A stretch of DNA of 64,000 bases from Syntrophomonadaceae bacterium (GTDB lineage: Bacteria; Bacillota; PH28-bin88), in the NCBI GenBank assembly GCA_018333865.1, contig JAGXSE010000009.1:139460-203459 (forward strand), written 5' to 3'. The notes below the pieces were generated by a model. The model saw only the letters and a list, made by a program, of their open reading frames with translations, had not been told where the DNA came from and made no database searches. The number at the start of each line of letters is the position of its first letter. Position 1 is the stretch's first letter. This document shows positions 32,046 through 39,308 of the stretch, one piece after another. Made by a program: the position numbers and the translations under genes.

Positions 32046-34460
32046 CTACACAGCCTGCAGGTCCAGTCTGGCAGCCAGGATGCTGATGTCGTCCCGGGCC
32101 GCCTGATTACACCTTACCAGAGCAGCAGCAAGCAGTCCTTCAGCTATATCCTGAGGTTCCTGTTTACTCATTTTCCTTAAAGCCTCGGCTACCCAATCCT
32201 TATCCTGCCATTCGATGATCCCGTCAGTTACCATTACGATCAGGTCGCCGGATCGTAGCTTCAAACGCTGAATTTCAGGCTCTACCTGGGCCAGGATCCC
32301 AATTGGCAGTGAGCTGGCCTTGATTATTGTTACCTGTTCTCCCCTGACCAGGTAACTGGCAACTGCCCCGATTTTAACCAGCTCAGATTCTCCGCTGTTT
32401 AAATTTATTAATGCCAGATCCAAAGTAGCGAAACTCTCCTCCTCTGAGCGCAGCATTAAAGCCGAATTAACTGTTTTTATTGCCAACAGATATGGAAAAC
32501 CTGCTGCTATCAGTTTGCTCACCAGGTTGATAGCGGCCCGGCTTTCCTCAGCAGCCCTGGGCCCGCTTCCCATCCCATCGCTTAAAGCTAACAGGTGTTG
32601 ACCGCCTCTAATGACCTGGGAGCAATACCAGTCACCACTAGTACCGCTATCTTTCGCTTTCGCCTGGACAAAACTGGCGGAAACATCATAAACCGGTGCG
32701 GAATAGAGACGGAAAAAGCAGCTGCCACCGTTATCCGCCAATGAGCAGCCTGCAAGATCAACCGCTAACCGGCGTCCCGTCATCCGCGCAACAATTGGGG
32801 AGACTATCCTGGCACAATCCATTTCTCCCCGGCAAGCGCTGCTTTTAACCACAACCTCCAGCCAGTCTCCGCTGCCCTGTAAAGCATGGACAGCTATCAA
32901 ATCCATGCCACACCTTTTCGCTTCCCGCAGGATAGACGATTCCATATCCTCATAGAATTTGGCCTCCCGCTGGAGTTCTTGAGAAAGTTCTTGCATCATT
33001 TTGGCTACACCGTTTAGCTGTGCCGCCACTAACAGTCTGCTGTCTTCCAGGCGGCAGAGCAGGTGTCTTTCCTTTTGGAAGGCCCCAGTTAAACAACTGG
33101 CTGCAATAGCCAGCTCCTTGGTTCTGTTGCATCGCCGCTTAATCTCTTCAGGCACGTCCCGGGGACCAGCCCAGCCCTTAGCATCTGCAACAGCAAGCAA
33201 ATCCAGCAGCTGGCGGGAAGTAATATAAAAGTCCTTCTCCCAGCAAGCCTCGTACAGGGAGCAGTTGACACAAACTTTGGCTGAAATATCCTTAAATACA
33301 GAACTCACGGAGAAATCCTGTTTTACTTCGGCGCTGTTGACGGTATGCTGAAATGCTGCTGCCATCTCATGGAACAGGATGCTGATTTCTGTCACCCGCT
33401 GAGCGGCAAGCTGACGTACTTTTTCTGGCCAGACCTTTTCACCAGAACTCTCACCGGGTTTGGACAATTGCCACTCCTTGATTATCTTGAGGGGAACAAA
33501 AAGAAATAGCAGTCCTGCCAGGGCCGCTTCTACCATGTTGTGTCTCCAGGCGGGAAAGTCTTGGGCATACAAGGACAGGACCATTTGCCCTAAACCAAAC
33601 CCCAGGATTATTCCGATTTTGCCGTAACGGCGCACACTCCCTGCAAACAGACCACTCAAAGCGTAGACCCCGATCATGGGGGGATCGGGGTGTCCCAGCA
33701 AATTCGGCATCAAGCCAACTAAAGCGCCGATTGCGGCGCCGGCACCTGATCCCCAGACCAGGGCTGCCATCATGATGACAGCAATACCAGAAACTTGCCG
33801 CAAACTCAGGCCCCAAACCGACGCCTCTCCTAACCCCGCCCAGAAGCCAACCAGGACAAGGCTAAGGCAGGCGGATTCTTCCAGGGACAGGCCCTCCCGC
33901 CATTTCCGCAGATTCAGCACCCTGGCAGACGTTATAAAGGCAATGGCTAGACAAGCTGTCATAATAGCCTCCATCGCCAGCAGAATCTGAGCGTATACCA
34001 AGGGCTTATCCAGGTACAAAAACGCGGTTTTTATGGTTAAGGGGATCAGCGCGGCAAAAAAGGGCAAAAGCCAGCGATGTCTGTTGAAAAGGCCGCCAAA
34101 CAACCAGGAGATAAGCAAGATTACAGGATAGGGGGCAGCTGATGCCAGCGGAATATTCCCTATCAAAACAGGAAGTACGGTCATTTGAATTGCAATAGGC
34201 CACAACAAAAACCTGTGGGTTTGCCCGATGACAGTTAAAAAGGCAGGCCCAAAAGGGGACATCCCCCCCAAGAGTGATGCCTGAGCAAGGACCATGCCTG
34301 TTATCTGAAGGACGAGAGCCTCGGCCGAGAAAAATTGACCAAGCCAGCGGCCCAGAGGCAAGTCCGGTTGGTACGACTTGCTCATTTTATTGGCCGAAAA
34401 AGCCGGCTGCCTGGGCCCACCTGTTATCCGGCGGTAGGGATATACTTCGGGCAAATGCAT
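32046..34460 (-). CDS. spoIIE: Stage II sporulation protein E (SpoIIE)
   Basis: An 804-residue protein, close to the 827 residues of B. subtilis SpoIIE. The first 330 residues contain about ten hydrophobic segments, then a central oligomerisation region with a cysteine motif (CVNCSLYEACW near 405), then a PP2C phosphatase domain (LALSDGMGSGPRAAEE near 622, VMVTDGI, RDDISILAARL). It dephosphorylates SpoIIAA to activate sigma-F in the forespore and works at the asymmetric septum. ATG 34460 was kept as start for lack of a better one. A promoter with a Spo0A-type box lies upstream. Confidence 0.94.
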   Translation of the reverse strand: MHLPEVYPYRRITGGPRQPAFSANKMSKSYQPDLPLGRWLGQFFSAEALVLQITGMVLAQASLLGGMSPFGPAFLTVIGQTHRFLLWPIAIQMTVLPVLIGNIPLASAAPYPVILLISWLFGGLFNRHRWLLPFFAALIPLTIKTAFLYLDKPLVYAQILLAMEAIMTACLAIAFITSARVLNLRKWREGLSLEESACLSLVLVGFWAGLGEASVWGLSLRQVSGIAVIMMAALVWGSGAGAAIGALVGLMPNLLGHPDPPMIGVYALSGLFAGSVRRYGKIGIILGFGLGQMVLSLYAQDFPAWRHNMVEAALAGLLFLFVPLKIIKEWQLSKPGESSGEKVWPEKVRQLAAQRVTEISILFHEMAAAFQHTVNSAEVKQDFSVSSVFKDISAKVCVNCSLYEACWEKDFYITSRQLLDLLAVADAKGWAGPRDVPEEIKRRCNRTKELAIAASCLTGAFQKERHLLCRLEDSRLLVAAQLNGVAKMMQELSQELQREAKFYEDMESSILREAKRCGMDLIAVHALQGSGDWLEVVVKSSACRGEMDCARIVSPIVARMTGRRLAVDLAGCSLADNGGSCFFRLYSAPVYDVSASFVQAKAKDSGTSGDWYCSQVIRGGQHLLALSDGMGSGPRAAEESRAAINLVSKLIAAGFPYLLAIKTVNSALMLRSEEESFATLDLALINLNSGESELVKIGAVASYLVRGEQVTIIKASSLPIGILAQVEPEIQRLKLRSGDLIVMVTDGIIEWQDKDWVAEALRKMSKQEPQDIAEGLLAAALVRCNQAARDDISILAARLDLQAV

Positions 34461-35681: not shown

Positions 35682-36479
35682 TTGCAATCAGCAGTCAGTT
35701 CTTTATTAGTTTTTATCTATTTTTTTCTACTGATCTGCCCTGGATATGCGGCCGAACCTTCCCGGCATTACAGCTGCCATGAACTCAAACTGAAAGCATT
35801 TCAAGCAGACAACAACCTGCCGGTCGCGGGCATTGCCGATAAACTTACTCGGACAGCCCTCGCTGCAGGGGATTTATCCGCAGTCAAGGAAAATACAGCC
35901 GGTCCAACCGGAAAAATTGAGCTGGTCATTGATCTGGAAAAACGGTCTCTAACTATATTGTCTGATGGAGAGGTATTCAATAGATACCCGGTGGCCATCG
36001 GAACCAGCGAAGATCCCTCCCCCATCGGCACATGGAGAATAGTCCACAAAAGCACAGGCTGGGGCGGCGGTTTTGGCACCCGCTGGCTTGGGCTTAATAT
36101 TCCCTGGGGCATCTATGGCATCCACGGCACAAATAAACCCTGGTCTATCGGCAGAGCCGCTTCCCATGGCTGCTTTAGGATGCATAACAGGCATGTGGAG
36201 GAAATTTTTCCGTGGATTCCGGTTGGGACCAAAGTGACGGTGGTCGGAAAACAAAAAAGCTTGCCGGCCGAAAAAAGGCGGGTCATCCGCCCGGGCAGTT
36301 CGGGGCAGGATTTGGTATTCGTTCAGCTGCGCCTGCGGGAAATGGGGTTTTATATCGGCCTACCTGATGCCAGGTATGGTTACATGACTGGAATAGCTAT
36401 CAATTACCTGAAAACCCTCCATGGGCTGCCCGCTGATGGGATTATAGACGAGGAAACCTACCGGATACTGGGTTTCTAA
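35682..36479 (+). CDS. Exported L,D-transpeptidase with peptidoglycan-binding domain
   Basis: A 265-residue protein with an N-terminal signal peptide (hydrophobic 5-20, then PGYAA). A YkuD catalytic domain follows (HGTNKPWSIGRAASHGCFRM near 149, containing the conserved His, Ser-His-Gly-Cys and Arg). A C-terminal peptidoglycan_binding_1 repeat lies at about 205-262 (LRLREMGFY, GLPADGIIDEETYRIL). It would form 3-3 cross-links in cell wall or spore cortex. TTG start behind AAGGAGG. Its stop overlaps the 3' end of the converging ppx gene by four bases. Confidence 0.88.
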   Translation: MQSAVSSLLVFIYFFLLICPGYAAEPSRHYSCHELKLKAFQADNNLPVAGIADKLTRTALAAGDLSAVKENTAGPTGKIELVIDLEKRSLTILSDGEVFNRYPVAIGTSEDPSPIGTWRIVHKSTGWGGGFGTRWLGLNIPWGIYGIHGTNKPWSIGRAASHGCFRMHNRHVEEIFPWIPVGTKVTVVGKQKSLPAEKRRVIRPGSSGQDLVFVQLRLREMGFYIGLPDARYGYMTGIAINYLKTLHGLPADGIIDEETYRILGF

Positions 36480-37357
36480 AAGGAATAGCCTGCCAAACTT
36501 AAGACAAGTCCCTCCAAAAGATCTGCCTCACTCACAGTCACACAATTAACCTGCAAACCATCCATTACTCCTTCTAAAATTGCCAGGCCAGCCGGCATAA
36601 TATCTGCCCTGGCTGGCTGCAGGCCTTTCACCTGCTGCCGGGCTTCCATGGACATTCCCGCCAGCCGGTACCGCCATTTCTTTATTGTCGCTAGCCCGAG
36701 CACGAAGCCATGCACCAGTTCGGGGTCATAACAGGTTAGCTCCTGTTCCATAGCCGCTAAAGAGGTAATGGTTCCCCCCACTCCAACCAGTCCTTGCCGG
36801 GCAGCAAGGTGTTCCAGGCTGGGCCAGAGCTGATCCCGGATCTCCTGGCAGCCCATCCCCAGCTCAGTGCAGCGGACTGCCCCCAGTTTCAGACTGAGGC
36901 TATCAATTGTACCCTCCTTATTCCGATAAACCAGTTCCGTGCTCCCCCCGCCAATGTCCAGCACAACAGGATCGGGTAAACAGCTAAACGAGGAAGTTGC
37001 CCCCAAAAAACTCAACCCGGCCTCCTGATTTCCACTTAAGACCTCCAAAGCGTAACCTGTTTCCTTTTCAATGACCATGGACAATTCTGCCCTATTCAAA
37101 GCATCTCTGGCAGCGCTTGTTGCTACAATAGCAATACCGCTGACCCCAAGGTTTTGCGCCTCCCGGATAAAACGGCTGACAGCGCTAGCTGTCCGGCGCA
37201 GGGCAGGCTGTTTTAAGAGCCAATCATGGTATAGCCCCTCTCCCAGCCGGGTGCTGTCAATTTGCCTGGCAATGGTGATAACTTTTCCATTCCGAACTTC
37301 AGCCACCAATAGACGGACAGAATTAGTACCTACATCGATAACTGCCCATGAATCCAT
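36476..37357 (-). CDS. Ppx/GppA-family phosphatase
   Basis: A 293-residue member of the ASKHA-fold Ppx/GppA family (exopolyphosphatase or pppGpp phosphatase). VIDVGTNSVRLLVAEV is at the N terminus, VVATSAARDALNR near 100, VLDIGGGSTELVY near 135 and GVGGTITSLAAM near 195. It is a single-module form, shorter than E. coli Ppx (513). ATG 37357 behind GGAGGT. It shares the yab/divIC region as in other Clostridia. Confidence 0.88.
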   Translation of the reverse strand: MDSWAVIDVGTNSVRLLVAEVRNGKVITIARQIDSTRLGEGLYHDWLLKQPALRRTASAVSRFIREAQNLGVSGIAIVATSAARDALNRAELSMVIEKETGYALEVLSGNQEAGLSFLGATSSFSCLPDPVVLDIGGGSTELVYRNKEGTIDSLSLKLGAVRCTELGMGCQEIRDQLWPSLEHLAARQGLVGVGGTITSLAAMEQELTCYDPELVHGFVLGLATIKKWRYRLAGMSMEARQQVKGLQPARADIMPAGLAILEGVMDGLQVNCVTVSEADLLEGLVLSLAGYSF

Positions 37358-37939: not shown

Positions 37940-38332
37940 CTAATCTCCAACATCTGCCGGATTTTCCGCTGCCAAGGGCAAGACGTTACCTGGCTGCCCC
38001 CTCATAAACACAATTTCCCCGGGGTAAATTAACCCCAATTCCTCTCTGGCCACCTTTTCAATGTAACTGCGGGAATTTAAAATTTGTTTTTGTTCCTGCA
38101 GCCCCTGTTTTTCCAGGAGCAAGGCCTCCTTTTGCTGCTGTTCTATAGCTATTTCCCGTTCTATCTGCCAGATCTTCAGCTCTAAGTGGCCAAGAGAAAA
38201 GACCACATAACCGAGAATAATAAGACAAAGCAAAAACCCAGGTTTAAAGCGCCATGTAATCACCCTCCGCCTGCGCTTGACCGGAGCCGGGTGATGGTTC
38301 GGTAACGTATGAAAACGGGGGGCAGGGTACAT
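37940..38332 (-). CDS. divIC: Septum formation initiator DivIC/FtsL-like
   Basis: A 130-residue bitopic protein with a basic cytoplasmic N terminus (VKRRRRVITWRFK), a single membrane helix at about 31-50 and a coiled coil (EREIAIEQQQKEALLLEKQ) ending in ARRELGL-like AREELGLIYPGE. This is the DivIC layout; it joins FtsL and DivIB in the divisome. Ends 84 bases upstream of the S1 gene. Confidence 0.85.
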   Translation of the reverse strand: MYPAPRFHTLPNHHPAPVKRRRRVITWRFKPGFLLCLIILGYVVFSLGHLELKIWQIEREIAIEQQQKEALLLEKQGLQEQKQILNSRSYIEKVAREELGLIYPGEIVFMRGQPGNVLPLAAENPADVGD

Positions 38333-38335
38333 AGT

Positions 38336-38563
38336 TTAATCCTCCTCAGGATTATTATTGAAAAGCCCCATGGCCTGCGCCGGAATCACAATCACGACCT
38401 GGTATCCTTTACTCTTTGCCCGGTGATACAAAGTAGCCACGGTACTAGGGCTAATACCCAGCTGCTTGGCCACTTCCTCATTGGACTTACCTATTTCTTT
38501 TAAGGTAACCACCTGACGCTCCCTGAAACTAAGGTTTTCGGCGCCCCTGATTTCGATCTGCAT
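38336..38563 (-). CDS. Small LuxR/sigma-70 region 4-like HTH protein
   Basis: A 75-residue protein in which residues 9-55 form a helix-turn-helix of the sigma-70 region 4 / GerE type (LSFRERQVVTLKEIGKSNEE, then QLGISPSTVATLYHRAK). The short tail is hydrophobic then acidic. It has no sensor domain. The stop is three bases before divIC, so they are co-transcribed. The DnaA-box cluster lies directly upstream of its start. Function unknown; a small regulator of the divIC region or of the spore genes is a guess. Confidence 0.7.
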   Translation of the reverse strand: MQIEIRGAENLSFRERQVVTLKEIGKSNEEVAKQLGISPSTVATLYHRAKSKGYQVVIVIPAQAMGLFNNNPEED

Positions 38564-38588
38564 TTAAAAATCCGTCCTCGCAAGGCAC

Positions 38589-38754
38589 TTATCCACTCTT
38601 TTATCCACAAACTGTGGACAATATTTGTACAAACTGTGTATAAATCTATTCTAGCCAGCGGCAAAGATTCCTGCTTTCGCCCAATAAAATCTTTGCCGGA
38701 AGCCTATTGTTGCCGATTGTTATACACTCTATTAAAAATTAGGACTTATCCACA
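38589..38754. promoter_or_regulatory. Cluster of six DnaA boxes
   Basis: Perfect TTATCCACA lies at 38601-38609 and 38746-38754. Near matches are TTATCCACT (38589-38597), TGTGGACAA reversed (38613-38621), TGTGTATAA reversed (38635-38643, a TTATNCACA match) and TTATACACT (38720-38728). A 10-bp stem (38660-38669 with 38688-38697) lies between the two groups. No dnaA gene is present, so a titration or regulatory cluster is more likely than oriC. Confidence 0.7.
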
Positions 38755-38798
38755 ATTTTGTATCACAATACAATACCGCAACTAAAAACCTCCTGCTT

Positions 38799-39308
38799 TT
38801 AGTCTCCAGCAGGAGGCTTAGGCCGGCGGCCAAACCGGATGATTTTTTTTACATAGAATCGAAGCGGCCTGGTTATCCATTTTATTCCTCGCCATAGGTG
38901 CCATAAAAATAGGCTGCACAGGCCCAGGAGCCAACGGAGAAAAAAGGCCAATAATCTGAATGGCCAACCCAATACCTTGCCCAGCCATCGATATGCCCTG
39001 CCGATGGCCAGGAGGAACTTTCGCCATATGACAAGCATCCTGCTGCTAAAAAAATGAAGATAGACACCAATACCCAGCAGAACACCTGCAAAAATATAGG
39101 CCCGCAGGTCAGCGCTGTTGCTGATGAGCATAATAGTAAATACCGTGGGTGTGAGGACCAACCAGACCAGCAGGTCGCCTAAAGTGGTTGCAAACCGCCC
39201 TGGTCTGGCTATAGAACGCCATGCCCGGTAAAGGTCGAAGGCAAGCCCAATAAAGAGGCCGGTGGCCATCATTGTCAAAAAAGCTTGGAACTGCTGTAAA
39301 GGAGTCAT
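38799..39308 (-). CDS. yabQ: Spore cortex protein YabQ
   Basis: A 169-residue protein with four hydrophobic segments in the first 130 residues and a basic C terminus. TPLQQFQAFLTMMATGLFIG and GDLLVWLVLTPTVF are typical of YabQ, needed for spore cortex formation in B. subtilis. The yabP gene lies 10 bases upstream. Confidence 0.85.
   Translation of the reverse strand: MTPLQQFQAFLTMMATGLFIGLAFDLYRAWRSIARPGRFATTLGDLLVWLVLTPTVFTIMLISNSADLRAYIFAGVLLGIGVYLHFFSSRMLVIWRKFLLAIGRAYRWLGKVLGWPFRLLAFFLRWLLGLCSLFLWHLWRGIKWITRPLRFYVKKIIRFGRRPKPPAGD

Follow-up and report, generated by a model that had tools for sequence, protein, structure and literature searches.

A conserved cluster of DnaA boxes at an apparent sigma-H-type promoter upstream of a small HTH regulator gene and divIC

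The locus lies within a 64-kb window, the whole stretch of DNA that was analysed, and reads along the minus strand as yabP, yabQ, a terminator, a promoter with an array of short sites, a gene for a small helix-turn-helix (HTH) protein, divIC and a gene for an S1 protein (Table 1). The hairpin at the yabQ 3' end is strong (-16.4 kcal/mol, z -4.0) and runs into a stretch of T; its loop of 10 is the reason that a scan for consensus terminators missed it. This predicted terminator sets yabQ apart from the HTH-divIC unit. Downstream, divIC follows the HTH gene in 77 of 80 relatives, almost always overlapping it or lying a few bases away, and in nearly all loci whose sequence covers both ends the divIC start falls about -38 to +7 bp from the HTH stop, the exceptions to this tight coupling being L039 (gap of 170 bp) and L113 (gap of 85 bp). 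Beyond the divIC and S1 genes, on the same strand, are genes for a Ppx/GppA-like phosphatase (36476-37357) and a SpoIIE-like protein (32046-34460), both named from sequence, which we take to be the usual spoIIE neighbourhood.

The HTH protein scores above the curated Pfam cut-offs both for Sigma70_r4_2 (1.1e-10, 41.5 bits against 25.7) and for GerE (1.4e-9, 37.9 bits against 23.5), placing it in the LuxR/GerE or sigma-70 region 4 class. Aligned orthologues are 58-78% identical. Its AlphaFold2 model (pLDDT 90) has a strand, three helices and a strand. The fold matches include GerE (1fse), NarL and sigma region 4; they are weak (best E 0.05), and most of them extend over no more than the HTH. 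We rejected the idea that the protein is a sigma factor, as it has 75 residues and a region-4-like domain only, with no region 2. It resembles GerE and other stand-alone LuxR/sigma-4 HTH regulators in size (about 70-75 residues) and in HTH fold, but differs from them in its flanking strands, in forming a conserved family of its own, and in its gene place and promoter.

Table 1. Positions of genes and sequence features at the HTH-divIC locus, numbered from the first letter of the window
Feature	Position	Strand	Remarks
Reverse DnaA box 2, TTATCCACT	38589-38597	+	one mismatch
Reverse DnaA box, perfect TTATCCACA	38601-38609	+	gene strand reads TTGTGGATAA; in 11-bp register
Forward DnaA box, TTGTCCACA	38613-38621	-	register unit 38612-38622
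TTGTA-type unit, TTTGTACAAAT; candidate site of the HTH protein	38623-38633	-	sequence; class A units in relatives
DnaA box TTATACACA, perfect to TTATNCACA	38635-38643	-	array unit 1 (register unit 38634-38644)
Sigma-H-type promoter (predicted), AGGAATC-N14-GAAT (AGGAATCTTTGCCGCTGGCTAGAAT)	38648-38672	-	sequence match; AGGA-N17-GAA in relatives
10-bp inverted repeat spanning the -35 element	38660-38697	none	MFE -19.7 kcal/mol, z -4.8
Distal DnaA box, TTATACACT	38720-38728	+	upstream of promoter
Distal DnaA box, perfect TTATCCACA	38746-38754	+	upstream of promoter
Intrinsic terminator at yabQ 3' end, CCTCCTGC...GCAGGAGG then TTTTT	38784-38816	-	sequence and fold
yabQ (spore cortex protein), upstream neighbour ending before promoter	38799-39308	-	TIGR02893 1.1e-23
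75-residue stand-alone HTH regulator (sigma-70 region 4 / LuxR-GerE type)	38336-38563	-	Pfam, alignments, AlphaFold2
divIC (septum formation initiator)	37940-38332	-	Pfam DivIC 8.3e-15; start 3 bp past HTH stop

An earlier note on this DNA had pointed to six DnaA boxes within 166 bp between yabQ and the HTH gene, two of them perfect and two forming an inverted pair. All of this holds: each of the six boxes at 38589-38754 has at most one mismatch to TTATNCACA, the boxes at 38601 and 38746 are both TTATCCACA on the plus strand, and the pair at 38601(+) and 38613(-) is separated by 3 bp. Allowing one mismatch, the window contains 26 sites for TTATCCACA, whereas shuffled sequences give an expectation of 12.1 (none of 100 shuffles reached 26), and five of the 26 fall in the 166 bp, where about 0.03 would be expected. 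The promoter thus carries at least two boxes above chance, as a DnaA-regulated promoter should. Genome-wide pattern searches, on which our ranking of box sites is based, found TTATCCACA and TTGTCCACA (together TTRTCCACA) only 62 times in 3.2 Mb, and three TTRTCCACA within 170 bp at only two places, the HTH-divIC locus and C39:45149-45298. The note had also described a 10-bp stem in the middle of the cluster. The stem is present (arms 38660-38669 and 38688-38697) but is not conserved: such a repeat recurs over the promoter in 3 of 73 relatives, fewer than the 7 counted at a control position, and we rejected it as a functional element over the promoter.

The boxes flank a sequence that appears to be a sigma-H-type promoter, with an AGGA -35 element, a GAA(T) -10 element and a fixed spacing between them. 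AGGA-N17-GAA is the spacing of the Bacillus subtilis sigma-H consensus. It occurs in 62.5% of the upstream regions of 80 relatives, whereas about 3% of background windows contain it. Other AGGA-GAA spacings stay mostly near that background, rising slightly, to 11-12%, at N18 and N20. The same element precedes spo0A in 10 of 20 relatives, and DnaA boxes are absent there in 19 of the 20. A sigma-70 promoter for HTH-divIC was rejected, as none was found in 38300-38900. Given that the HTH gene and divIC nearly touch, that a sigma-H-type promoter precedes them and that yabQ ends in a terminator, the two genes probably form a single sigma-H operon.

The upstream regions of relatives have a further regularity. 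TGTA(C/G) elements recur in them at 11, 22 and 33 bp, and the reverse boxes, which read TTGTGGATAA on the gene strand, share their register, so that the whole region is a tandem array of 11-bp units. Three unit types can be told apart, namely A (TTGTACTAA, TTGTAGTAA and similar), F (TTGTCCACA) and R (TTGTGGATAA); the usual arrangement is A, F, R, R. An array is detectable in 147 of 171 distinct upstream regions, most often with three or four units, and its first unit lies a median of 13 bp past the GAA element; the array therefore runs from about the predicted transcription start towards the ATG. Read without any filter, the unit that follows the forward box is WTGTG(G/C)A(T/C)AA, and its loosest positions are those that are loose in TTATNCACA, box position 5 (N) and box position 3 (A/G). 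The TTGTA repeats themselves were rejected as DnaA elements, since the origin regions that we looked at have none near dnaA. Upstream of a divergent HTH-divIC locus that has no DnaA boxes, genome G017 carries a long 11-bp tandem repeat, TTGTTTAACCA (C1:92836-92982, about 2.4 kb before the locus).

We examined the conservation of the boxes in two samples. The first came from a scan of the GTDB genome set, which yielded 402 relatives; in the best 80 of these the 200 bp upstream of the ATG contain at least one box in 64, at least two in 54 and at least three in 33, against 6.1%, 0.25% and 0.04% of background 200-bp windows; exact boxes occur there at 3.6 per kb against 0.018 per kb in the background. 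For the second sample 300 genomes were drawn evenly from the phylum, and 112 of them have the HTH gene. Among 114 upstream regions from this draw and a few genomes of the first, 97 have at least one box, 89 at least two and 57 at least three. Relatives share kinship and such counts are not independent events, for which reason we also give families: at least two boxes occur upstream of the HTH gene in 37 of 49. Conservation before the same HTH gene, which the earlier note had named as a check, thus extends across the phylum, and the orthologous promoters keep their boxes as those of a DnaA-regulated operon should. Seventeen of the 114 (about 15%) have no box in 220 bp, some of them retaining the promoter, and DnaA control of HTH-divIC is therefore not universal. 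There is a mild association between presence of the HTH gene and Spo0A (Fisher p 0.007). Six of eight Spo0A-less genomes with the HTH gene keep at least two boxes, although three of the eight are 84-92% complete and Spo0A may simply be missing from their assemblies. We rejected the idea that the array is tied to the ability to sporulate, as loss of Spo0A does not bring with it loss of the boxes or the promoter; a purely sporulation-specific role of the boxes is not proven, since the boxes survive that loss.

Loci without the HTH gene served as natural controls and bear on two other readings of the cluster. We compared 25 genomes in which yabP was found and the HTH gene is missing or divergent. 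Those with yabQ and divIC in place have only stray boxes at most, with the exception of G035 (L280), in which the HTH gene and the TTGTA units are gone and a sigma-H-type promoter with four boxes stands directly before divIC. This one case appears to split the unit classes as our model predicts, the boxes staying with the operon and the TTGTA units going with the HTH gene. It also speaks against the view that the array is an operator of the HTH protein alone, built of TTGT-core units every 11 bp, its likeness to DnaA boxes being incidental. That view is consistent with the TTGT core, the one orientation and the one 11-bp register of all units, with the four genomes (G170, G194, G239 and G027) that keep the HTH gene and TTGTA-type units and lack boxes, and with the otherwise control-level frequency of phased four-unit arrays in the genomes. 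It does not account for the roughly 200-fold enrichment of exact TTATCCACA, nor for the finding that most variation among forward and reverse boxes is at positions where DnaA is tolerant, and we consider it unlikely. A wider regulon of the HTH protein through phased arrays elsewhere was rejected, tandem TTGTA pairs and four-unit arrays both being at control level outside the HTH promoter. In L055, L073, L075 and L105 an insertion of 1.2-2.4 kb, carrying a divergent spoIIR-like gene (named from sequence), separates yabQ from the HTH operon; DnaA boxes are absent there and TTGTA-type units are kept.

The cluster could instead be a titration site (datA-like or a DnaA-box cluster), buffering the pool of free DnaA in the neighbourhood of oriC and exerting no control on the genes downstream. 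The locus does lie about 60-190 kb from dnaA or the contig start in several complete relatives, and another conserved cluster resembles such a site. This is the one on C39 noted above (G000 C39:45149-45298; L120 1650-1799; L227), just downstream of tsaD (gcp). In 20 of 30 relatives at least two boxes lie there within 400 bp, and in 15 of 30 two boxes abut, with starts 9 bp apart. In B. subtilis a DnaA region of top affinity, one of the strongest, is likewise downstream of gcp (PMC4447404), so the tsaD cluster may be a conserved titration site, and it is the better candidate of the two. At HTH-divIC the position of the cluster is locked to the promoter and the ATG, which argues against titration as the sole role, and HTH-less loci with the same gene order have no cluster. 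Titration could do without a set register relative to a promoter and without any particular gene downstream, and it leaves the promoter geometry unexplained; as an account of this locus it seems to us decidedly improbable. A hairpin in the 5' UTR is harder still to sustain. The inverted boxes, TTGTCCACA-N3-TGTGGATAA, fold as a hairpin of 9 bp (-9.8 kcal/mol, z -4.7) beyond the predicted start, but the arms do not covary, box position 5 being paired in 44 of 101 cases against 51 expected if the arms were independent, and their variation tracks the DnaA consensus. We have rejected this reading as very improbable. To a chromosomal or secondary replication origin we give next to no credence, despite the density of boxes and the proximity of the region to dnaA in several relatives. 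As the earlier note had said, there is no dnaA near the cluster; that of this genome is on contig C38, with dnaN and boxes of its own. The GC skew, for which the note had proposed that a switch would make the cluster an origin, is negative on both sides (about -0.14 to -0.15 at 36-40 kb) with no switch, and in complete relatives dnaA sits at an end of the record, with at least tens of kb between it and the HTH locus. The cluster, with neither a skew switch nor dnaA or dnaN nearby, is therefore not an origin.

We consider it likely that the cluster belongs to a DnaA-controlled sigma-H-type promoter driving a two-gene operon for a small HTH regulator and the septum protein DivIC. The start site, predicted at about 38635-38642, would lie at the head of the array, which runs towards the ATG with one unit per helical turn of 11 bp, so that a DnaA oligomer could form along one DNA face on the forward and reverse boxes. 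Because these sites lie downstream of the promoter, between start and ATG, we infer that DnaA represses it. In B. subtilis, DnaA represses several promoters directly and activates sda (PMC4447404), and by analogy the latter case would be a counterpoint to repression here. The TTGTA units nearer the promoter would probably be an autoregulatory site through which the HTH protein tunes its own operon.

Sigma-H acts at the onset of sporulation and DivIC acts in septation. Free DnaA may hold the operon down, and its titration or inactivation would release the operon for polar septation; the operon would then come on at sporulation onset, when sigma-H is active, only if DnaA is scarce or titrated. 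This would couple both the HTH regulon and polar septation to replication status. A link of this kind to septation or sporulation had been raised in the earlier note, which recognised the boxes and passed over the promoter, the yabQ terminator, the 11-bp phased array, the second unit class and the evidence from HTH-less loci. The sigma-H-type promoter and the tight HTH-divIC operon strengthen the link, in which binding by DnaA and its regulatory effect are what we infer. More tentatively, and with some doubt on our part, the locus might be a phylum-wide sporulation replication checkpoint that stands in for Sda, with DnaA and its HTH partner gating DivIC-dependent asymmetric septation from a helically phased composite operator. 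What makes the locus of interest is that sites for the initiator are fixed to a promoter from which, it appears, a regulator and a septum protein are both made as sporulation begins, a candidate for a conserved route by which spore formers without Sda could avoid sporulating with unfinished chromosomes or the wrong number of them.

Sigma-H drive of a division gene has a parallel in B. subtilis, where a sigma-H promoter of ftsAZ raises division gene expression at the onset of sporulation; we know of no DnaA array at that promoter. DnaA-regulated promoters are themselves already known, and in B. subtilis the action of DnaA as a repressor or activator of promoters, including that of sda, is established (PMC8203912, PMC4447404). 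The target and architecture of HTH-divIC are not described in the literature that we searched, where we found nothing joining DnaA boxes, divIC and sporulation, nothing on DnaA boxes in Moorella thermoacetica and no text on the sigma-H consensus. Box clusters mark the DnaA-repressed B. subtilis promoters of ywlC, vpr, yyzF-yydD, trmE-noc and ywcI-sacT (PMC4447404). These share such clusters at promoters with our locus, and their genes are unrelated to HTH-divIC. To our knowledge, none of them has a sigma-H link or a second class of units. The ftsL promoter of B. subtilis, according to a passage in PMC8203912 that cites Goranov 2005, is bound by DnaA, which likewise places DnaA at the promoter of a gene for a divisome membrane protein; the HTH locus differs in having divIC and in a site conserved across the phylum with a fixed architecture. 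Sda (PF08970) is missing here and in 59 of the 60 other genomes searched (found in 1 of 61; the B. subtilis control was positive), and the HTH-divIC locus is therefore not an Sda system. It would nevertheless work like the sda promoter of B. subtilis, where multiple DnaA boxes also precede the gene of a small sporulation-linked protein (PMC4447404, PMC8203912). From sda the present locus differs in its sigma-H-type promoter, in boxes that lie downstream of the start in an 11-bp phased register, and in its products, an HTH regulator and DivIC in place of a kinase inhibitor.
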